A DNA stretch of 55,610 bases from Calditrichota bacterium. GTDB taxonomy: Bacteria; Zhuqueibacterota; JdFR-76; BMS3Abin05. This document shows positions 27,741 through 55,418 of the stretch, in pieces (position 1 is the stretch's first letter; each line of letters begins with the position of its first letter). The notes under the pieces were generated by a model. The model was given only the letters and a program-made list of their open reading frames with translations. It was not told where the DNA came from and did no database searches. The position numbers were made by a program, and so were the translations under genes. The DNA lies in the NCBI GenBank assembly GCA_013151735.1, contig JAADHR010000193.1:1-55610 (forward strand), in the 5' to 3' direction.

Positions 27741-27923
27741 AAAAGCGCTTCTTCCTCGCAACCAACTGCTTTATTAATAAATGAGTCACCTTTAGAAAGC
27801 TCTTAGCCGCGAAATTCACGCACCCACATGAACTGATTGCACTGGAATAAACGGGGTGCACTTTGTGCCATTTGCGGCGAATCACGTGAACTCACAAACC
27901 CTTTCAACCAATGCCGTATTTCC

Positions 27924-28904
27924 ATGAAAAAGAACACAAAAACAGGTCCTTCACAGCGAAAATTTTTACGAGCGGCTAACCTATTTTTCAAATCCAATCT
28001 TGCCCTAAAAAAAAACGAATCTTTCCTTATTGTGACGGATGAATATTCCTGGGATTTAAGCCGCAAACTCTGGCAGACAGCCATTGAGAGCTACCCCCAG
28101 ACCTACGTCATGGCCTTTTCGGCCGCTGAATTGCGAGCGAGTTCTCTGAGCAAGTTGCTTTCCTTTATTTTGGACGCTGACGTCTCTCTGTTTGTAGCAC
28201 GCGAATTTTCATTTTTATGGGAGGAATTTTCCCTTTCAAAAAATTTAAATACGCGCTGGGCAGGGCTTATCGGAATCCGGCCGGATCAATTTACACGAAT
28301 GGTTGATGTGGACAGTGAGTCGCTAAGGCACAACACCCAAAAACTGCATGATGTGCTCCGATTGGGCAAAAGGCTGACCATCGAAACCGATTCAGACCAC
28401 TCTCTTTCTTTTGAAATAGACCATTCCGCTTGTTTTGCAGACAGCGGTCTGGTTCAGAATTCCGGCGACATTGGCTGTATCCCCGGCGGAAGGGTTCTGA
28501 TAAAACCCCGCGAGCAAACCGCCTCCGGCGATTTGCTGATTAACGGATCCTTGTCGTCGGTTGGAATTCTGCAGGAGCCGGTTCGATTCTTAATTAGGAG
28601 CGGAAGACTCAAAAAGATTTATGCCAAAAGCGATATTTCAGATTTTCGGGCCTCCCTGCGCTCGCGAAACAAAAACCGGCGGATCCTGGTCCGTGTGGGA
28701 ATAGGCCTTAATCCTCACGGAAAAATCACCGGAAATTGCTTTGTGGACGAACGAACCCACGGGGTGATTCATCTGGCATTTGGTGATGAAATCGATTTTC
28801 GTTCACACATTCTCAACCCGACGCTTTCCGTTGCCACCCTTAAAAGGGCTTCTGTAAAGATCGATAATAAAGTTATCCTCAGGCGGGGAAAACTCGTCGT
28901 TTAA
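27924..28904 (+). CDS. M29 aminopeptidase-like protein with degenerate metal site
   Basis: From the ATG at 27924-27926 the protein is 326 residues. A TTG 87 bases upstream is possible, and neither has a clear RBS. The C-terminal half follows the layout of the M29/aminopeptidase T family: GRVLIKPREQTASGDLLING, RVGIGLNPHGKITGN, DERTHGVIHLAFGDE and FRSHILNPTLSVATL. In active members these regions read roughly GEVFTAP, ExGIGTNP, GTIHIAFG and SHxHWDL. Here the ligand Glu residues are Arg and the His-Trp-Asp is lost, with only the His of IHLAFG kept. The protein may be a non-peptidase member, as the same fold also includes the dioxygenase NicX. It is isolated between minus-strand genes. Confidence 0.7.
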   Translation: MKKNTKTGPSQRKFLRAANLFFKSNLALKKNESFLIVTDEYSWDLSRKLWQTAIESYPQTYVMAFSAAELRASSLSKLLSFILDADVSLFVAREFSFLWEEFSLSKNLNTRWAGLIGIRPDQFTRMVDVDSESLRHNTQKLHDVLRLGKRLTIETDSDHSLSFEIDHSACFADSGLVQNSGDIGCIPGGRVLIKPREQTASGDLLINGSLSSVGILQEPVRFLIRSGRLKKIYAKSDISDFRASLRSRNKNRRILVRVGIGLNPHGKITGNCFVDERTHGVIHLAFGDEIDFRSHILNPTLSVATLKRASVKIDNKVILRRGKLVV

Positions 28905-29031: not shown

Positions 29032-29961
29032 CTAATTGAGCAAAAAGGCAAAACCGATTGCGGGGGTAACCACGCCGGAAAGGGATGGTTGAACGCCCAG
29101 AACAGGGCCGGCATGTGCAAACAGGCGCCAGCCTGCAGCCGCTCCCACTCCCTTCTTCCCCAAAAAAATCGACAGGAAAAACCGCCGGTAATTCGCTGTG
29201 GACAGGCCCACCGCCCAATTTGCGTCTTGTTTCCCGTTAAAAAACGATCCCGCCATGAGCAGGGCAGTGGCCTGAAATCGCCAAAAACTGCGACGGTACA
29301 CAACCGGCACGTGTAATCGGCGAATGATGAGGGTGTAGAGGGTGTCCCGTTTCGGCGACAGAAAAATGATTTTTCCGCTTAAAGTCAGCGAGGGAGTCCC
29401 CCAGAAATTCTCCGAAACGGTTGCTTTCCGGGACCTCTGAAAAAGGAGCGTTGAATCCTTGGTTGAGGCACGAAGAATAAAATCCAGTTTTTCCAATTTT
29501 GCGAGGTTCCGTTTCCAGAGGGCGCGCGGCACAATTAAACAAGAGTCCGTTAAAGGCGGGTACAGTGAACATTCCGAAACCAGGGAATCCGGCCGGTAAA
29601 GCCTAATAAGGGACCGAATCGTGTGTGTTAGCTCCCGGAGCCTCTCTGCCCGAAAGGCCTGATAACGCAGCAGGTTTGAGATCACATCCGGGTAAGCCGC
29701 ATTAAACTGCTTTTTGGAGATGAGCAGGGTGGTGGTATCGGGCAGGGGGGCTCGCTGCATGATGTGAGAAAGGGAGTCCCACTCGGCCAGGTCCTGCTGA
29801 ATAGCGTAAAAAAGTGCACGGGAAATCCGAATGGAATCCGGGGAGGTTTGTGCCAGAGCGGCAGACGATCCGCCGACCTGCCACAAAAACAGGATCAGTC
29901 CGGCTATTTTTCCAAGGCGCCGAAACCGATCAGCCGCTCTTTTTATTGGCAACCAGGGCAT
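29032..29961 (-). CDS. Secreted protein of unknown function, end of the amidase cluster
   Basis: With the start at 29959-29961 (AAGGA five bases before the ATG) the protein is 309 residues. It carries a signal peptide (GKIAGLILFLWQVGGSSAAL, cleavage after ALA). Residues 40-150 are helical and charged. Residues 185-309 contain short alternating hydrophobic stretches (YRRFFLSIFLGKK, AAGWRLFAHAGPV, VVTPAIGFAFLLN) that look like beta-strands of an outer-membrane or membrane-associated domain, though this is only an impression. I do not recognise the family. It overlaps the upstream membrane-protein gene by 32 bases and belongs to the same four-gene unit. Confidence 0.7.
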   Translation of the reverse strand: MPWLPIKRAADRFRRLGKIAGLILFLWQVGGSSAALAQTSPDSIRISRALFYAIQQDLAEWDSLSHIMQRAPLPDTTTLLISKKQFNAAYPDVISNLLRYQAFRAERLRELTHTIRSLIRLYRPDSLVSECSLYPPLTDSCLIVPRALWKRNLAKLEKLDFILRASTKDSTLLFQRSRKATVSENFWGTPSLTLSGKIIFLSPKRDTLYTLIIRRLHVPVVYRRSFWRFQATALLMAGSFFNGKQDANWAVGLSTANYRRFFLSIFLGKKGVGAAAGWRLFAHAGPVLGVQPSLSGVVTPAIGFAFLLN

Positions 29962-30619
29962 CCCATTCCTTTTTTGCCTGGGTGGGCCGAACCTGCGGAC
30001 GCACCAAAACAACAATCTTATTGTTTTTCTCGCCTCTTACGACGGCCAAAATGTCCTGGTAGCGGACCCACATGGGCAGAGTAAAGTTTTCCCCGAGATC
30101 GGGGATGAAAATCCCGTGATAGACGTAGGTGCCGGGGACCTTTTTATAGTCATACGTAATTTTGCCGTGCAGTTCCTCCTTGAGGTCTTTCAGGGACACC
30201 TCCTTCACCGGAGCTACAGGAGGAATAAGGAGGCGTTTTCCTTCTTTAATGATTTTTTTAATCTCCTCCTTATCCGAGGCGTGTCCGTGCGCCTCAAACT
30301 CCGTTTTCTCCGAGCCGCTTTTTACAGGGATGCCCAACCCTTTCAGGAACCGGATGAAGAATTCAGACAGCTTCGGGCTTCTAAGAAATACGAGGATTAC
30401 AACAAACAGGATCAGCAACGGTGACTGAAGAATCAGGCGAAAAAGGGAGACAAAGAATTCCCGGAATCCGTAAAGAACTTTCCCACCTATCCCACCGGCG
30501 GAATCCTTTTTTGTTTTTGCAGACCTGAATGATAAAATCAGCAGGGCGATCACAACAACCAAAATAAGTGTTTGTAACCAATAAACAGCCAATGCATTCC
30601 AGATTGTTTTAAGAAGCAT
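29930..30619 (-). CDS. Membrane protein of unknown function, amidase cluster
   Basis: Translation most likely begins at 30617-30619 (AAGGA six bases upstream), giving 229 residues. Two strong membrane helices are visible: LQTLILVVVIALLILSF near 15-31 and SPLLILFVVILVFL near 66-79. A Lys/Glu-rich soluble domain follows, with GTYVYHGIFIPDLGENFTLP and WVRYQDILAVVRGEKNNKIV in a likely beta-rich fold, then a basic tail. No catalytic motif is recognised. It overlaps the downstream secreted-protein gene and follows the 219-residue membrane protein by about 106 bp. The four genes look like one unit. Confidence 0.7.
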   Translation of the reverse strand: MLLKTIWNALAVYWLQTLILVVVIALLILSFRSAKTKKDSAGGIGGKVLYGFREFFVSLFRLILQSPLLILFVVILVFLRSPKLSEFFIRFLKGLGIPVKSGSEKTEFEAHGHASDKEEIKKIIKEGKRLLIPPVAPVKEVSLKDLKEELHGKITYDYKKVPGTYVYHGIFIPDLGENFTLPMWVRYQDILAVVRGEKNNKIVVLVRPQVRPTQAKKEWDALVANKKSG

Positions 30620-30725
30620 GTAAAATCCTTCTAAAAACGAGGTTGAGGTTTGTAAAGAATTCACACGATTTCCTTCCAAGTAAATAGAGTTGTTAAAAAT
30701 GGCTAATTTTGATTAAACTACAAAT

Positions 30726-31385
30726 TTAGTGATGGGAAGCCTCGGCCGCTTCCAACGATTTTTTATCCTTTTTGGCTTCAATAATTCGAAAGATTGCATG
30801 AATCGGCTCCGTTCCCGAAGCCACCAGCATTCCGGTTAATAAAAAGTCCCAGAAGGTAGGATGGGCCGTGATTTTCAGAGTAAACAGCATCCCCAAATCC
30901 AGAACCGCACACAGCCAGACCCCAATCACCGAACCAATGAGAAACACGGTTCCCTGAATTAAAAGGATTCGTACCTTTTCTTTTAGGGGATCGGTCAATT
31001 TTGGATCGTTGAACCGGGGGTCAATGGCCTGCAGCTTTTTCAAAATGGATTCCCAGACGGCTTCCCACATATCCTGAAGCAGTGCCGACTTTTCATAAAC
31101 AAGTTTTAGAATGGTAATCAGGAGTTCAAACAACCGATTCAAAATAGTTGCCAGGGTTAAAATTATGAAAAAGAAAGCGACGACTTGAGCGCTCTCTCCC
31201 CAGGAAGACATTCCGGAAAGACCATTTCCCTGTGCCAGAGCGGCCTTTGGTCCCATCATCAGCAGCAGGACAAGGAGAAAACTCCCCAATCTGAATGGGA
31301 TAAATGGAGACCGGTGCAGCTGAACTTTCTGTTTTCCGGGCCCTTTCACAGGTGCCACCATACAAAGGTTGGGAAATCGTCTCAT
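30726..31385 (-). CDS. Polytopic membrane protein sharing the SGM-PIH module with the adjacent amidase
   Basis: This 219-residue protein has an N-terminal hydrophobic segment (FRLGSFLLVLLLMMGPKAAL, possibly a cleaved signal). Three membrane segments follow: VVAFFFIILTLATILNRLFE, GTVFLIGSVIGVWLCAVLDL and FWDFLLTGMLVASGTEPIHA. The last matches DILLSGMLISGGSQPIHDLI in the upstream amidase protein, and the order and spacing of helices also agree. The two are therefore paralogous membrane modules. Its start overlaps the amidase stop by four bases (ATGA). Small size, helix pattern and amidase partner recall holins, but I cannot assign it to a named holin family. Confidence 0.75.
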   Translation of the reverse strand: MRRFPNLCMVAPVKGPGKQKVQLHRSPFIPFRLGSFLLVLLLMMGPKAALAQGNGLSGMSSWGESAQVVAFFFIILTLATILNRLFELLITILKLVYEKSALLQDMWEAVWESILKKLQAIDPRFNDPKLTDPLKEKVRILLIQGTVFLIGSVIGVWLCAVLDLGMLFTLKITAHPTFWDFLLTGMLVASGTEPIHAIFRIIEAKKDKKSLEAAEASHH

Positions 31386-32482
31386 GCTACACCTCCATCA
31401 CTCTCGGGAATCAACACAAATTTCTTTTTCCGGAAAGAGGCCACAAATGAATCAAATTCCGGATTTTGTTCCCATTGTTGAAGTGTATTTTTCACCCGCG
31501 TGATCAGAGCGTCAAACGGGAAATTGTTTCCGGGACAATCCGTATGACCGCGCTTCACATCTCTGTGACGAACAATATTCGTCACGGGGATGCCGTAGAT
31601 TTTCGTCCACAGGGCAATCTGCCGGGCGCCCTGTTCCATTTGCGCATCGGAGGGTACGGGCGGACCAAATTTCCCGGAGGCATTGTTACCGGGTGCAGAG
31701 GGGTCTGTGGAAAAATTGCCCACAAAACAAATCCCAAGTGAATTTCCATTACTGATTTTATTCCCGCGTTTCACATGGTACCCCACACTGTCCCACCGGC
31801 AGTAATTGTGAAGGGATCCGTCACGGGTCACCACACAATGATAACTGGGGTCCAGGCGGCGGTCGCGCTCGATGTCAACAATCTCTTCAAAACTCAAATT
31901 ATTGTGAGTGGCTGAATGGTGAATAACGATGTACTGGGGATTTTTCTTCCGGAGGCCGTGACCCGGGCGATTGGGGTAAATTCCGCCATCGTAATGAATC
32001 GCCTCAAATTCTTTTTGACTGCCCCCTAAAACCGGTTCTTTCTGCGGCGTTTCCGACAACGGCAGCGCCTGGTTTTTTGCGTTTTCCCGGGCTTTTTGCA
32101 AGAAATTAATCAGGTCATGAATAGGCTGGCTGCCCCCGCTTATCAACATTCCCGAAAGCAAAATGTCCACCCAGGGCGCGATTTGTCCCTGAGTAAACCC
32201 CATCATCTCCAAAATACGCAAGTTTCCTTTCCAGCAGAGCAGAACCCCCAAAACAATTCCAATGCTTTGTAAAATGAGCCGTTTTTGAAGTTTAAGCTTT
32301 TTTTCCAGCTCCGGCAAATTTTGTTGTGAAAAACCGCTCAGGCGGTATCCCAACGGTACATTTCCCCTAAAGAGACCGGTGGTCTCAAAGGTAATGGCAA
32401 CAAATTCAAGAATCCGCTCCAGCACGGTGGCTGGCGCCAGAAACTTCAAAATAACGGCCAGAAGGTGGTCTAATGACGGCAT
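31382..32482 (-). CDS. Membrane-anchored N-acetylmuramoyl-L-alanine amidase (amidase_2/PGRP fold)
   Basis: I chose the ATG at 32480-32482 (365 residues), because upstream in-frame sequence overlaps the HU terminator. Residues 1-140 form a membrane module with the SGM-PIH segment (DILLSGMLISGGSQPIHDLI near 106-125), shared with the next gene. Residues 175-340 are an amidase_2 domain: IVIHHSATH with Zn-ligand His near 188, YHCVVTRDGSLHNY, and HRDVKRGHTDCPG with His306 and Cys316. It should cut the MurNAc-L-Ala bond of peptidoglycan. Fusion of the catalytic domain to a polytopic membrane module is unusual. The C-terminal 25 residues are hydrophilic. Confidence 0.85.
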   Translation of the reverse strand: MPSLDHLLAVILKFLAPATVLERILEFVAITFETTGLFRGNVPLGYRLSGFSQQNLPELEKKLKLQKRLILQSIGIVLGVLLCWKGNLRILEMMGFTQGQIAPWVDILLSGMLISGGSQPIHDLINFLQKARENAKNQALPLSETPQKEPVLGGSQKEFEAIHYDGGIYPNRPGHGLRKKNPQYIVIHHSATHNNLSFEEIVDIERDRRLDPSYHCVVTRDGSLHNYCRWDSVGYHVKRGNKISNGNSLGICFVGNFSTDPSAPGNNASGKFGPPVPSDAQMEQGARQIALWTKIYGIPVTNIVRHRDVKRGHTDCPGNNFPFDALITRVKNTLQQWEQNPEFDSFVASFRKKKFVLIPESDGGVA

Positions 32483-32684: not shown

Positions 32685-32993
32685 TTATTGAAGAGGCTTT
32701 TTTAACTCTTCTTTTAACAGTTTACCCGGTTTAAAATGTGTCTTTCTGCGGGGGGGCACGTAAACGATTTCCCCGGTTTTGGGATTTCGTGCTTTTGGTT
32801 TGGCTTTGGTTGTTTTCACCTCAAATACACCAAAATCTCGAATTTCAATACGAACTTCAGGATTTGCTTCTGCCATAATTTGACGGAGCGTCGTGAAGAG
32901 AGTTGAAACAATTTTTTCAGTCAAAGGAAGTTTTTCTCCTACCTCTTTGGCTACCCGCTTGGCAATATCCCGTTTCGTAACCGTTTTCTTCAT
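32685..32993 (-). CDS. HU/IHF-family DNA-binding protein
   Basis: A 102-residue nucleoid protein with N-terminal helices (TKRDIAKRVAKEVG) and the DNA-arm signature VRIEIRDFGVFEVKTTKAK followed by ARNPKTGEIVYVPPRRKTHF. HU bends DNA without strict sequence specificity. Strong RBS AAGGAGG eight bases before the ATG. It is monocistronic between a promoter and a terminator. IHF versus HU cannot be separated from sequence alone. Confidence 0.93.
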   Translation of the reverse strand: MKKTVTKRDIAKRVAKEVGEKLPLTEKIVSTLFTTLRQIMAEANPEVRIEIRDFGVFEVKTTKAKPKARNPKTGEIVYVPPRRKTHFKPGKLLKEELKKPLQ

Positions 32994-41424: not shown

Positions 41425-42771
41425 TCACCGCGGGCGCATTCTCAATTTATCCGCGTATTTTTCCCGCATGGCCCGAAAAAAGTCCGCCTGCTTTTTAATA
41501 TCCTTTTCAAAAGACGGATCTCTTTTGACACGCGCCTCGTACTCTTTTTTAATTTCAGGCACACGCAGCAAAAACTTCTTAAACCGCTTTAGGCGTCTGG
41601 CATCCAACGGCGGCCGTGGCGGGTTCTTCTGAATTTCGGATGAATGGGACGCGGCAGGTTTAATTCCGGCCCGGGGAGACTCCGCCGGCACAGCGGTACC
41701 CGTTTCGGTCACCATCCGAACGTAAGCTCCGTTCTGAAGCCCTTCCTGCCCCACAACGACCACCCAATCCCCCTCATTTAGGCCGCTCAACACTTCGACC
41801 CGATCCCCATCGGCAAAACCCAGTTTCACATCCCGCTGGCGGGCAACGCTGTCCTGTACAACAAACACCCGATCGGTTTCGCTCTCCAGCAGAAGGGCCC
41901 GCTTGGGAATCACCAGAGCGTGTGGGTGGGTTTCCGTAATGATTTTCACCGTGGCAAACATTCCGGGGCGCAGGGGCGTCCCCTTCTTCAGCAGCATCAC
42001 GGTCACCTTCACGGTGCCGCTCTCGGGATCCACAATGGGATTAATCATCTTTACGTGACCCCAAAATTCTCTTCCGGGATAGGCCTCCACCGTAACCAGT
42101 GCCCTTTGCCCCACATGGATTTTTTGAATGTCCTTTTCGGGAATAAACACGCGGGCATAAAGCGTGTCGAAATTAACCATCACAAAAACCTTTTGATTCA
42201 CCCCCACATTATTCCCTAACTCAATCAGACGCTGGGTAATCACACCGGAAATTGGCGCCCGAATTTTGGCATACGTGAGCTTTAGTTGAGCTGCTTCCAA
42301 CTGGGATTTGGCCGTTTCATACTGATATTTGACATCGTCAAAATTCTCTTTGCTAATGAGATTTTGGGAATACATTTCCTTTGAACGCTGGAAAAGCCGG
42401 GCATTGTTTTCCGCCTTTGCCAGGGCCTGTTTAACCTCCAGGCGCAGTTCCCGGTCATCCAATTCGGCCAGAATCCTATTTTTCGGGGCGTAATCGCCCT
42501 CTTCTACCGTGATTTTTTGCACCAATCCGGAAACCCGCGACACAACATCCACTTTCCGCAGAGCCTCAATATTGGCATTGCTCAGCAAATAGATGGAAAT
42601 GGGTTCCCGCTTCACCTTCTCTACCTTTACGGGAATCGCACCCATATTCATGGCAGGACGTCCTCTGCTCATTCCCCGCGAACGTTTGGGAGAAGAATCA
42701 TTTTTCCCGCAGGAATAGACAAACGCAACCGCTACTGCAAGCAGAACAAAAATTTTAAATCGTGCGCGCAT
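41425..42771 (-). CDS. RND periplasmic adaptor (HlyD/AcrA-like) lipoprotein with C-terminal extension
   Basis: This 448-residue membrane-fusion protein has a lipoprotein signal (AVAFVYSC, Cys about 21). A barrel-sandwich half-motif (VSGLVQKITVEEGDYAPKNR), a helical hairpin (residues 110-165), the second half (KIRAPISGVITQRLIELGNN) and beta-barrel/membrane-proximal domains follow. Residues about 365-448 are a charged extension not usual in AcrA, ending in Lys/Arg-rich helices. It bridges the RND pump to an outer-membrane channel. The start overlaps the preceding stop by one base (TAATG). Confidence 0.92.
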   Translation of the reverse strand: MRARFKIFVLLAVAVAFVYSCGKNDSSPKRSRGMSRGRPAMNMGAIPVKVEKVKREPISIYLLSNANIEALRKVDVVSRVSGLVQKITVEEGDYAPKNRILAELDDRELRLEVKQALAKAENNARLFQRSKEMYSQNLISKENFDDVKYQYETAKSQLEAAQLKLTYAKIRAPISGVITQRLIELGNNVGVNQKVFVMVNFDTLYARVFIPEKDIQKIHVGQRALVTVEAYPGREFWGHVKMINPIVDPESGTVKVTVMLLKKGTPLRPGMFATVKIITETHPHALVIPKRALLLESETDRVFVVQDSVARQRDVKLGFADGDRVEVLSGLNEGDWVVVVGQEGLQNGAYVRMVTETGTAVPAESPRAGIKPAASHSSEIQKNPPRPPLDARRLKRFKKFLLRVPEIKKEYEARVKRDPSFEKDIKKQADFFRAMREKYADKLRMRPR

Positions 42772-43877
42772 TACCGACGCCCTCCTTTTCGACCCAAATA
42801 GTGTACCATCATTACCAGAGCCACAACTAACAGGCCCACAAAAAGAATAAGATTTCGAGAAGATTTTGCGTTTAGGCGTTGTTGGTTAAAAGAATGAAGG
42901 ATTTTTTCAAGCGCTTCCTGTGACAGGTCACCAAACAGAACTACCGTTGTTCGGCCCAGATTTCGACGCATTTCCCAGACGCCCATGTGAGAGGAAACGG
43001 CGGGATACTTCCTTTTGGCCAGGCGAACCCGGGCCTTTTTCTCGAACAGAGAAAGCGTACTCAGGCCGTCGGAGAAAATGAGCTGGGCAAATTCTCTTTT
43101 CCGAAATCGCAGCAGCCGGAAGGCCTGTGGCTGAAAGCCTTCCGGAAGCCATTCGGGTAAAAGAACCGGAAACGGGAGAACCTTTTGCAGGGAATCCGCG
43201 CTTGCAAAGGTTCTGGAAAACCCGGCCTGTACGGAATCAATCTCATCGGGTAAAATCGTAAACAGCACCGGATCCAGGACGGGATTGAGCAGAAGGTTTT
43301 TAAAATAAGAGTACTGAATGAGTTTGCCGTCCGGAGCGATTTTTTTGAGTTTTAAAAGGAAAAAGGTGTTTCGATCAAGCCGAAGGTACAGACTCGGGCG
43401 GTCGCCTATTTTGGGGATCAGGGAAAGACGCACGGTCTTCCGGCCCAGAAAAACCCCGGATGGCTCTACGCTTACATTGTAATTTTTAAGAATCAACGCC
43501 ATTTGAGATTTGGAAATGGCATGCGAAAATAATTTCCGGTGAAAGAGCAGTGTGCGTTTCCGAAATTTTTGTCCCTTCTTTTTCCGAATAAAAACGGACG
43601 GCGGAATTTCTATGATTTCTTTTCCCATAAAGGAAAGAGGTAAAATAAATTGAATGTGCCGTTTTCCGGATGTATCCTGGTAAATTTTCTGCCAGATACG
43701 CACGGTGTCCACCTGAGTAATCCAGTCGCCCTCGTAGGCCGTGGTCTGATTTGCATGAACCATTTTCCGAAGGATCTCTGCCGTTCCGGTCGGCCGAGAA
43801 AAAGCTGGCGTCGTAAAGATCAAAAATCCTGTAAACCAGAAGAGTACTTTAGATGTACGTTTCACTCTTTTTAACAA
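42771..43877 (-). CDS. RseB/MucB-like sigma-E regulator with C-terminal membrane anchor
   Basis: This 368-residue protein has a signal peptide (KVLFWFTGFLIFTTPAF) and a LolA-like domain (residues 30-215). The MucB/RseB C-domain follows, with LPEWLPEGFQPQAFRLLRF near 240-258 and the hallmark FSDGLSTLSLFEK near 268-280. Unlike soluble E. coli RseB it ends with a membrane helix (LILFVGLLVVALVMMVHYLG) and a basic tail. RseB holds the anti-sigma factor and responds to envelope stress. The gene lies 246 bp after the anti-sigma gene, in the right order for an rpoE-rseA-rseB set. I see no gene in 43878-44123. Confidence 0.82.
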   Translation of the reverse strand: MLKRVKRTSKVLFWFTGFLIFTTPAFSRPTGTAEILRKMVHANQTTAYEGDWITQVDTVRIWQKIYQDTSGKRHIQFILPLSFMGKEIIEIPPSVFIRKKKGQKFRKRTLLFHRKLFSHAISKSQMALILKNYNVSVEPSGVFLGRKTVRLSLIPKIGDRPSLYLRLDRNTFFLLKLKKIAPDGKLIQYSYFKNLLLNPVLDPVLFTILPDEIDSVQAGFSRTFASADSLQKVLPFPVLLPEWLPEGFQPQAFRLLRFRKREFAQLIFSDGLSTLSLFEKKARVRLAKRKYPAVSSHMGVWEMRRNLGRTTVVLFGDLSQEALEKILHSFNQQRLNAKSSRNLILFVGLLVVALVMMVHYLGRKGGRR

Positions 43878-44123: not shown

Positions 44124-44597
44124 CTACGGTTCGTCCAGCGCCACAACCGCCAGAGAAGCCTGCTGCCCCACCGGGCTAAATTGAGTGGACAACACGTATT
44201 CTTCCAGAAAGAACTCATTTTCCTGCTTTTGCTGCGCGCTTGATGCAGCCGGGAATCTTTTGTTTTCTTTTATGCGATAATTCCAGATCATAAACAGAAC
44301 GACCACGCCCGTCATAATCACCCAGGCCAATTTTCGCCGTTTCCTGTAAATTCTTCCGGAAGAGTTTCCCCTGTTCACTTCCCGGCGAATTTTCTGGAAT
44401 AAAAATTCCTTTTGAAGAGCAGGCGGTTCGGTCGGGCGAAGTTTTTTCAAAGCCCTGACCGTTTCCCCGTACGCTTGAAATGCTGCACGGCATCGGGCGC
44501 ACGATTCAAGGTGGGACTCAACATCCTGAATTTCTTCAGGCGGCAACGCATTTTCCAGATAGGCTGTAAATTTGTTCTGAACCTCTTTACAGGTCAT
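44124..44597 (-). CDS. Zinc-finger anti-sigma factor, single membrane helix
   Basis: This 157-residue protein has an N-terminal zf-HC2 type zinc motif (Cys3 plus HLESCARC near 29-36) that would bind the sigma factor. One membrane helix (LAWVIMTGVVVLFMIWNY, about 90-107) and a short periplasmic tail follow. It should keep the ECF sigma factor inactive until stress. The start overlaps the sigma gene stop by four bases (ATGA), as expected for a sigma/anti-sigma pair. Confidence 0.9.
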   Translation of the reverse strand: MTCKEVQNKFTAYLENALPPEEIQDVESHLESCARCRAAFQAYGETVRALKKLRPTEPPALQKEFLFQKIRREVNRGNSSGRIYRKRRKLAWVIMTGVVVLFMIWNYRIKENKRFPAASSAQQKQENEFFLEEYVLSTQFSPVGQQASLAVVALDEP

Positions 44598-45109
44598 CTG
44601 TTATCCTTAAAATAGGGTTCCAGCAATTCTTTCAATTTCAACCGCCCGTAATGAAGGCGGGACATCACCGTTCCCACAGGGACGGACAAAATCTCAGCGA
44701 TCTCCTTCTGAGGCAATTCTTCCAGATCGTAGAGCGTAATGACCAGACGTTGTTCCGGCGGCAGTTTTTCAATGCCTTTCAGCAGGATTTCTTTTTCTTC
44801 TTTTCGTGTCAGGGCCAATTCCGGAGAATCCCCGGAATCCGCAAAACTATCGGGATCGACAGGCGTTTTAGAGAAAAACGGAAAAACCCGCGACAAGAGC
44901 CGGCGCTTGCGCTGAAGCTTCTGAAATCGATGGACAACAATCTGAAAGAACCAGGTTGAAAAAGTGCGGCTTGCATCGTAGCGGTGCAAACTGCGAAACA
45001 GCTCCACAAACGCCTCCTGGACCAGCTCTTCCGCATCACGGGAATTCTGCGTCAGATTTAATGCAAAATGGTAAATCCGATCCAGATACAATCGGGATAA
45101 CTGATCCAT
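44594..45109 (-). CDS. RNA polymerase sigma-70 factor, ECF subfamily
   Basis: From the first ATG the protein is 171 residues. Region 2 (YHFALNLTQNSRDAEELVQE, then FVELFRSLHRYDASRTFSTW) and region 4 (LPPEQRLVITLYDLEELPQK, EIAEILSVPVGTVMSRLHYG) are clear. It should direct transcription of envelope-stress genes, probably including its own operon. In-frame codons upstream of the ATG continue typical ECF N-terminal sequence, so the true start may be a non-standard codon up to 17 codons earlier (45158-45160, ATT after AGGA). Confidence 0.93.
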   Translation of the reverse strand: MDQLSRLYLDRIYHFALNLTQNSRDAEELVQEAFVELFRSLHRYDASRTFSTWFFQIVVHRFQKLQRKRRLLSRVFPFFSKTPVDPDSFADSGDSPELALTRKEEKEILLKGIEKLPPEQRLVITLYDLEELPQKEIAEILSVPVGTVMSRLHYGRLKLKELLEPYFKDNR

Positions 45110-53609: not shown

Positions 53610-55418
53610 TCAAAACTGATTCATAATCCGAACGTGGATTTTGCCCTGGCTGATGGCATCCCCTTCGCCGAGTCCATAATCAATTCCCACAATGCCGACG
53701 GCCGTTTGAGTGCGGATGCCCAGTCCGTAGCCCAGTTTCCACACATTCTGCCACTGACGGGTGGTCTGATTCTTTGCGGAAATCCAGCCGGTATCCAGAA
53801 ACAAAAACAGACGGGACCGGCGGCCCATTACATACCGGTACTCCAGATTGCTCCAGGCGATTCGGCTTCCCCGGAATTGATCCTCCCGATACCCGCGCAG
53901 CGTCCGGCTGCCGCCCAGATAGAATTGTTCTTCGACGGGAACAAAATTCCCCGGAAACCGCACTTCCCTCCCGTGAAGCCCGAGTGCCCACACCTGCCGC
54001 CCGAACCAATTCCAGTACCCTTCAAAATCAAGAGTGGTTCGGCGAATATCCTGCGCGGCTGCACCCTCGCCGAATGTTTTTCGCCGCAAAAAATCAACAG
54101 ACGTGGCGTAAAAAAGTCCGTGTCTGGGATTGAGCCAGTCATCCCGGGTATCGAAGCTCAACCCGCCGCTGAACCGCCAGGCCTGACTTCTGGGAATCCG
54201 GAACAAAACCTCTCCAATGGAATCCGGCAAAACGGATTCCCGCCCCATTCGGACGTGAAGCTGAAGGCTTTCCAGCCACATCCACTCGGATCCGATCTCC
54301 CAAACCCGCCGAATAAACGTGGTGTCTTGCAGGCGCTGCTGAAAACGAAGGGTCACCGAAACGGGGCGGTTCAACACCCAGGGTTCCTTGTAAAAGAGCT
54401 TCATTTCCTGCGAGCGGCTGTTTTTTTTCTGCCAGAACGCCGAAAATTCCCGGCCTGTCCCGAAAAGGTTTTGGAGATTTACATCAATCAATCCGGTAAA
54501 ATACGCCTTTTTTTGCAGAGTTGGCGGATTGTATCCCATCGTTCCGTCAAATTGGGCCATATTCCCTTCGCGGATGGGAATTTGCAGGCGGCCGTTCCCG
54601 GTGGAATCCCACGAAATGCGCACGCTGTCCGCCAGACGGAGGTACGGGAATTTTCGCAAACGACGTGACATTTTGTCCAGATCGCTCTTGCGAAAGGCCT
54701 TTCCCGGCCAGATCCGTAATTCGCGCAAAAGGGTCTTTTTTCGGGTAATTTTATTCCCCGAAATACGAATCTCGGCAATCTTTCCCGGCGGGCCCTCCCG
54801 TACAACCAGAGAGATCCACACCTTCTTTTGATTCGGAAGCAGCTCCAGTTTTTCAAGGCGGACCCTGCACAAAGGGTACCCGCGGTCAGCGTAGCGGGTG
54901 ACCAGATGGTCCAAATCGTTTCTGAGCTGTTCAGGGCGAAAAACCTGCCCGGGACGCGTATCCATTTCATTCAGAATACGTCGCGTCGAAATCACGTGAT
55001 TGCCCGAAATACGGATTCCCCCCACCCGAACCCGGGAACCCTCGCTAATAAACAGCGTGATCCTTTTGTGCTTTTCCTTACCCCGATAAAGAATGGAATC
55101 AATTCTGGCAAAAAAGTACCCCTTCTTTTGGTACAATTCAAGGATTCGTTTCCCGTAGGATTCCAACTCCGAATGGCTCAACGAATCCGTCGAAAATGCA
55201 GCCACTTTCCTCAACTCGGGCGCGCTGATGTGCCGATTGCCGATAAATTTAATTTCGGGCCTGTGGTCCCCGGAAAAACCCGCACCGGCGGAAATCAGAA
55301 TTCCGAAAAGGCTCATTCCGAAAAAAATTGCCGGAGCCCGCAGAACACGCGAAAAAACACAAAAAAGATTTTTCACGGTGCTTTTATCCGTTTTTCGTTT
55401 TTTGATTTTTTCGGCCAT
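53610..55418 (-). CDS. Omp85-family outer-membrane protein (TamA/BamA-like), three POTRA domains
   Basis: The 602-residue protein has an N-terminal basic segment and a hydrophobic signal (IFFGMSLFGILISAGAGF). About three POTRA domains follow (IKFIGNRHISAPELRKVAAF near 54, VGGIRISGNHVISTRRILNE near 133, AEIRISGNKITRKKTLLREL near 215). A 16-strand-type barrel begins near 300 and carries the conserved loop motif LRGYREDQFRGS near 525. The barrel shows strand pairs such as RIAWSNLEYRYVMGRRSR. Length and POTRA count are closer to TamA than to BamA (five POTRA). No tamB-like partner is in the window. The gene begins at 55416-55418, near the repeat-like sequence at 55440-55610. Confidence 0.9.
   Translation of the reverse strand: MAEKIKKRKTDKSTVKNLFCVFSRVLRAPAIFFGMSLFGILISAGAGFSGDHRPEIKFIGNRHISAPELRKVAAFSTDSLSHSELESYGKRILELYQKKGYFFARIDSILYRGKEKHKRITLFISEGSRVRVGGIRISGNHVISTRRILNEMDTRPGQVFRPEQLRNDLDHLVTRYADRGYPLCRVRLEKLELLPNQKKVWISLVVREGPPGKIAEIRISGNKITRKKTLLRELRIWPGKAFRKSDLDKMSRRLRKFPYLRLADSVRISWDSTGNGRLQIPIREGNMAQFDGTMGYNPPTLQKKAYFTGLIDVNLQNLFGTGREFSAFWQKKNSRSQEMKLFYKEPWVLNRPVSVTLRFQQRLQDTTFIRRVWEIGSEWMWLESLQLHVRMGRESVLPDSIGEVLFRIPRSQAWRFSGGLSFDTRDDWLNPRHGLFYATSVDFLRRKTFGEGAAAQDIRRTTLDFEGYWNWFGRQVWALGLHGREVRFPGNFVPVEEQFYLGGSRTLRGYREDQFRGSRIAWSNLEYRYVMGRRSRLFLFLDTGWISAKNQTTRQWQNVWKLGYGLGIRTQTAVGIVGIDYGLGEGDAISQGKIHVRIMNQF

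Follow-up and report, generated by a model that had tools for sequence, protein, structure and literature searches.

The DNA analysed here (the window) is a 55,610-nucleotide stretch of contig JAADHR010000193.1 from a Calditrichota bacterium (GenBank assembly GCA_013151735.1). It carries a cluster of four minus-strand genes, termed P1 to P4, which an earlier reading of the bare sequence (the original prediction) had put forward as an envelope device in which a peptidoglycan amidase is fused to a membrane module that recurs in the next protein. The positions of all four genes were confirmed, as were the ATGA common to the end of P1 and the start of P2 and the 32-base overlap of P3 and P4, and the ATG start of P1 at 32482 is backed by its homologues. 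Our results point to a real and conserved cassette which is, as far as could be searched, undescribed. The features of the cluster are as follows:

31382..32482, minus strand: P1, 366 amino acids, fusion of an N-terminal membrane module (SGM-PIH module) with an Amidase_2 domain
32096..32167, minus strand: DILLSGMLISGGSQPIHDLINFLQ segment of P1, third hydrophobic helix, with a kink near SGGS
30726..31385, minus strand: P2, 219 amino acids, second SGM-PIH membrane protein with an apparent cleavable signal sequence
29930..30619, minus strand: P3, 229 amino acids, two hydrophobic helices separated by a positive loop and followed by a soluble domain
29032..29961, minus strand: P4, 309 amino acids, secreted, with a signal peptide ending in ALAQ and a possible strand-rich C-terminal region

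P2, P3 and P4 gave no significant family match, and P1 gave a single one in Pfam, to Amidase_2 (PF01510), covering residues 179-319 (E 1.6e-21; 77.5 bits against a curated cut-off of 26). The domain carries the HHSATH and HRDV...DCPG motifs on which the amidase call had been based, and H188, H306 and C316, which from knowledge of T7 lysozyme we take to be the zinc ligands, are invariant in 26/26 P1 homologues. By these profile and zinc-ligand criteria it is an N-acetylmuramoyl-L-alanine amidase of the T7-lysozyme/peptidoglycan recognition protein (PGRP) type, with predicted activity, and its closest solved relatives include 6srt/6ssc and T7 lysozyme. The AlphaFold2 model of P1 was confident, with a mean predicted local distance difference test score (pLDDT) of 86.6 and a predicted template modelling score (pTM) of 0.59; a fold search with P1 returned the amidase domain, the best matches among viral structures being mostly phage amidases and lysins.

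The membrane module occupies about residues 1-140 of P1 and forms three helices in the model (4-35, 53-86 and 103-139), the third being broken at the SGGS motif (116-117); G111, G117 and P120 are invariant across the 26 homologues. The recurrence of this module in the next protein was borne out by alignment of residues 1-150 of P1 with P2 (hhalign E 9e-22 over 132 columns; blastp E 4.5e-9), and by this measure the P1 module and the membrane part of P2 are homologous and the duplication is real. No Pfam, NCBIfam or PADLOC family covers the SGM-PIH modules, in keeping with the earlier reading, and a module profile compared with solved structures gave weak matches only, to unrelated receptors. 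Stand-alone single SGM-PIH-like modules of 111-167 amino acids were also observed in other genomes of the phylum (loci L039 4131-4634, L040 5772-6107 and L041 7985-8341), where they adjoin neither amidase nor phage genes.

Charged residues are distributed very unevenly around the three helices. In P1 the density of Lys and Arg is 0.16 per residue in the first loop and 0.19 behind the third helix, and the P2-type proteins (collectively gene 2) reach 0.15 and 0.32 at these places; at the N-terminus and in the second loop of both, the density falls to 0.02-0.07 per residue. The bias favours a predicted N-out/C-in topology in 36/36 P1 and 30/30 gene 2 proteins (66/66), and from it we infer the orientation of the modules; the P2 proteins of the window clade begin with a signal sequence, which likewise places their N-terminus outside. 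Given this topology, the amidase is predicted to lie on the cytoplasmic side of the membrane, where it would be useless unless the module opens or flips, and the fusion would combine the logic of a holin and an endolysin in one chain.

The P1-type fusion was found in 14 of the 59 genomes of relatives (eight families) and in 19/82 genomes of the phylum, and a scan of one genome per GTDB species yielded about 30 fusions. The contigs bearing it are titled KSB1, Calditrichota/Caldithrix, Aminicenantes, Acidobacteriota, Gemmatimonadota, Gammaproteobacteria, Candidatus Desulfatibia and CSSED10-310, with single contigs labelled Deferribacteres and Caldisericaceae; since nearly all loci lie on contigs of metagenome-assembled genomes (MAGs), single taxon labels can be wrong. 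Removal of duplicates left 39 distinct loci, window included, and the second module gene stands directly downstream of the fused amidase in 39/39, so that the pairing of modules with amidases across genomes, which a neighbourhood survey had been proposed to look for, is a constant feature; its conservation across families and phyla excludes chance. The P1 tree mixes phylum labels in a manner that would fit transfer, a suggestion kept tentative by the MAG titles and by possible paralogues. At two loci, L132 (4460-5623) and L135 (2830-4023), fusion and partner occur as a second copy for which genes 3 and 4 were not detected; the genomes concerned, G070 and G069, each also carry a full four-gene copy. 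On two further MAG contigs (L066 7665-8957 and L073 2-986) the fused gene is split across two reading frames, by frameshift or assembly error.

Two additional genes, termed gene 3 and gene 4, follow the pair in 26/39 and 25/39 loci respectively. Gene 3 encodes one or two transmembrane helices and a coiled coil, mostly within 124-184 amino acids, and showed sub-significant matches to Rz-like spanins (0.005). Gene 4 encodes a signal peptide, a small beta part, a long helix and four C-terminal strands, the terminal residue being mostly aromatic; its predicted model, of low pTM, shows the signal helix, a 70-residue helix and the four C-terminal strands. Strong matches to gene 3 occur in 16/82 genomes of the phylum and gene 4 in 12/82, all of them fusion carriers (Fisher 2e-14 and 6e-10; these tests ignore relatedness, and gene 3 carriers span seven families). 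Two further weak gene 3 matches, inside unrelated open reading frames (ORFs) of about 1,160-1,190 amino acids, were set aside. When the neighbours were clustered, the only further genes to recur belonged to close kin or to generic families, and the unit is consequently self-contained.

In the window itself, P3 and P4 take the places of genes 3 and 4 and resemble them in overall build. Profile comparisons of P3 with gene 3 and of P4 with gene 4 did not establish homology, the similarity being weak and non-significant, and neither equation could be upheld. A weak in-register similarity links the C-terminal region of P4 to the C-terminal strands of gene 4, and a coiled coil is not evident in P3. 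The only relatives of P3 and P4 among the genomes searched come from the genus's other genome, the sister genome, where the P3 homologue (L026 850-1572) follows P2 and the P4 homologue (L127 267-1163) lies on a different contig, its next two genes being the same as in the window. At the point where the two are separated, positions 1-849 of L026 form a repeat-like non-coding contig end. The partners in the window genus may have been replaced or may be very diverged. The exact four-gene set described by the original prediction is seen only in the genus of the window, and the widely conserved partners in the third and fourth positions are genes 3 and 4.

Taken together, these data are best explained, with a little better than even probability, by a stand-alone holin/endolysin/spanin-like cassette for lysis or type 10-like secretion, built of unnamed families and with its holin-like part fused to its endolysin, which would act from within to open the diderm envelope in the manner of phage lysis cassettes and type 10 secretion systems; a role in lysis, release or secretion, as first proposed, remains the best reading of the conserved unit, and the earlier interpretation as a whole is partly supported. 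P1 and P2 would co-assemble in the inner membrane through their homologous three-helix modules, N-out/C-in, with the T7-lysozyme/PGRP-type amidase of P1 resting harmlessly on the cytoplasmic face until a trigger opens or flips the assembly. The tethered amidase would then get to the periplasm and cut peptidoglycan. Where all four genes are present, the bridging and opening of the outer membrane would fall to gene 3, an inner-membrane coiled-coil protein, and gene 4, a coiled-coil protein whose C-terminal strands would sit at the outer membrane, and some cells would be lysed or proteins released locally. In the window itself, the outer-membrane steps would need P3 and P4 as functional equivalents of genes 3 and 4. 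We infer here that the assembly is triggered in a holin-like way, that gene 4 resides in the outer membrane and that release is what the cassette serves.

Several observations weigh against this explanation. No named holin family in Pfam, NCBIfam or PHROGs matches the module, and no cargo gene is linked to the cassette among the clustered neighbours. Neither the gene 4 proteins nor P4 have a lipobox, a mark of classical o-spanins, where their signal peptide is cleaved; the one regular-expression match (L052) falls inside the signal helix. Because of this failed lipobox test gene 4 is not filed as an o-spanin; it could do o-spanin work via a protein anchor. In a fold search, no PDB structure matched gene 4 significantly. 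Y214 of P1 is Phe in 5/26 homologues, whose activity may therefore differ. Finally, only P1 and gene 2 are seen in L044, L045, L046, L055, L132 and L135, so that the outer-membrane partners would be unnecessary, diverged beyond recognition or encoded at another site.

The main rival is a permanent trans-envelope complex, in which P1 would anchor a periplasmic amidase that keeps a local gap in the peptidoglycan for a standing conduit or appendage made of P2, gene 3 and gene 4, with no triggered opening or lysis. The four predicted strands of gene 4 and its mostly aromatic terminal residue, as in outer-membrane proteins, would suit such a structure, as would the ties of genes 3 and 4 to the fusion and the location of the cassette in chromosomes among housekeeping genes. 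We nevertheless consider it unlikely: the charge bias of every P1 homologue places the amidase on the cytoplasmic side, the patchy presence of the fusion in the phylum ill suits a standing envelope function, and no conserved neighbour is fit to be the appendage.

A patchy spread over phyla, together with the compact operon, could suggest a device for abortive infection or other defence, in which the membrane pore pair and the peptidoglycan amidase would kill the infected cell. One gene 3 member (L051 3233-3667) matches SLATT_1, a two-transmembrane effector, at 25.3 bits, just below the cut-off of 26.3. This match concerns 1/14 gene 3 members and could reflect helix composition, the window proteins have no PADLOC match, and neither a sensor gene nor recurring defence neighbours accompany the cassette, so that we regard this explanation as very improbable.

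The original prediction had also looked to phage or contractile-injection genes as a sign of lysis or secretion, and this link did not hold. The cassette could serve to release a phage, a gene transfer agent (GTA) or a contractile injection system whose genes lie elsewhere in the genome, or could be a prophage remnant, in line with the phage-lysin type of its amidase and with phrog_20258, a small phage family with no assigned function whose similarity to the module is weak yet selective in several genomes (1.7e-5 to 6e-4). However, phage, capsid and contractile-injection genes are all missing from the surroundings of the cassette. The sheath C-terminal domain or gp25 was detected in 8/45 genomes without the cassette and 0/14 with it (Fisher 0.18, which is to be read as no positive association rather than proven exclusion), and the HK97 capsid in 5/45 non-carriers and 0/14 carriers. 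An accessory role in contractile injection and a GTA or prophage link were rejected on these respective counts. Relatives of the fusion or module were absent from INPHARED by tblastn, beyond the amidase domain, and from IMG/VR by profile-derived motifs and a DNA pattern of the SGM-PIH motif, searches which relied on tight motifs that distant relatives would escape. Moreover, the gene order is kept over great distances, unlike that of a remnant. An origin of this kind appears improbable to us.

Other genes of the window were noted in passing. An HU/IHF-like gene (32685-32993) lies directly upstream of P1; such a gene is also upstream in genome G001, and two genes upstream in G003. On the other side, a plus-strand ORF (27837-28904) convergent with P4 has a sub-threshold match to Peptidase_M29 (0.014), an order kept in the sister genome. 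Further away, a sigma-factor-like and zinc-finger-like gene pair (44124-45109) lies upstream of a gene for a MucB/RseB-like protein (42771-43877; 7e-7), itself just before resistance-nodulation-division (RND) efflux genes. An Omp85/POTRA outer-membrane protein (PF01103, 8e-22) is encoded at 53610-55418 and supports a diderm host.

The cassette might represent an undescribed class of machines with which bacteria open their envelope, distributed over about six phyla, mostly uncultured; its holin-like module would bear the endolysin as a tail in the cytoplasm, pair with a sister module and work with an outer-membrane partner held by beta-strands instead of lipid, a broader proposal to which we give somewhat less than even chances. 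If true, release systems of the holin type, so far examined chiefly in enterobacteria and clostridia, would extend to several phyla known mainly from metagenomes. Two questions are touched: the way in which endolysins are taken across the membrane by holins, and the lytic or non-lytic nature of type 10 secretion. A fused module and enzyme kept over very distant bacteria would offer a clean test object, since each module carries only its own enzyme and topology, flipping and release could be traced in one molecule.

Within the open-licence literature, we found no paper naming holins in KSB1 or Calditrichota. The closest parallel to the fusion is the TpeE-family protein of Clostridium sporogenes, a natural holin-endolysin fusion reported in six strains and read as favouring a flipping mechanism (PMC9527704). 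There too an endolysin follows a module that permeabilises the membrane, the enzyme being C-terminal and on the cytoplasmic side (PMC9527704). However, the Clostridium holin consists of one short helix and an amphipathic helix, whereas three helices are found here, and the Clostridium fusion belongs to one monoderm species, in contrast to the several phyla, diderm hosts, paired second module and extra genes of the present cassette. Lysis cassettes of Gram-negative phages (holin, endolysin, Rz/Rz1) similarly gather a membrane module, an amidase, an inner-membrane coiled coil and a secreted partner in one operon, and the predicted three-helix N-out/C-in topology would resemble that of a class I holin; the module also has its weak, selective likeness to phrog_20258. 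The present loci differ in that they lack phage genes and an o-spanin lipobox and that searches for viral relatives of the fusion returned none. By definition, a two-component spanin comprises an i-spanin and an o-spanin, the latter a lipoprotein (PMC6139136). Against the i-spanin pattern of an N-terminal transmembrane helix and a periplasmic coiled coil, gene 3 has one or two such helices followed by a coiled coil, its Rz-like matches being sub-significant.

Type 10 secretion systems are holin and peptidoglycan hydrolase clusters outside phages, with or without spanins (PMC13284979, PMC10847048), exemplified by chiWXYZ of Serratia and HolA/PepB/Rz/Rz1 of Yersinia entomophaga. Compared to these, the cassette fuses its hydrolase to a membrane module and has two homologous modules, uses an amidase instead of a ChiX-type endopeptidase, and has a gene 4 with C-terminal strands and no lipobox. 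Its parts are unrelated to theirs, and to known holins, by any search made. The statement that no named system has this layout should be qualified, since type 10 systems share the functional layout while being built from unrelated parts (PMC13284979, PMC10847048). Both are chromosomal stand-alone clusters of small membrane proteins and a peptidoglycan hydrolase which has no signal peptide and a predicted cytoplasmic location, and most loci described here add an inner-membrane coiled-coil protein and a secreted partner. The hydrolase and the non-phage setting are thus those of a type 10 system, with the SGM-PIH modules as the putative holin part.

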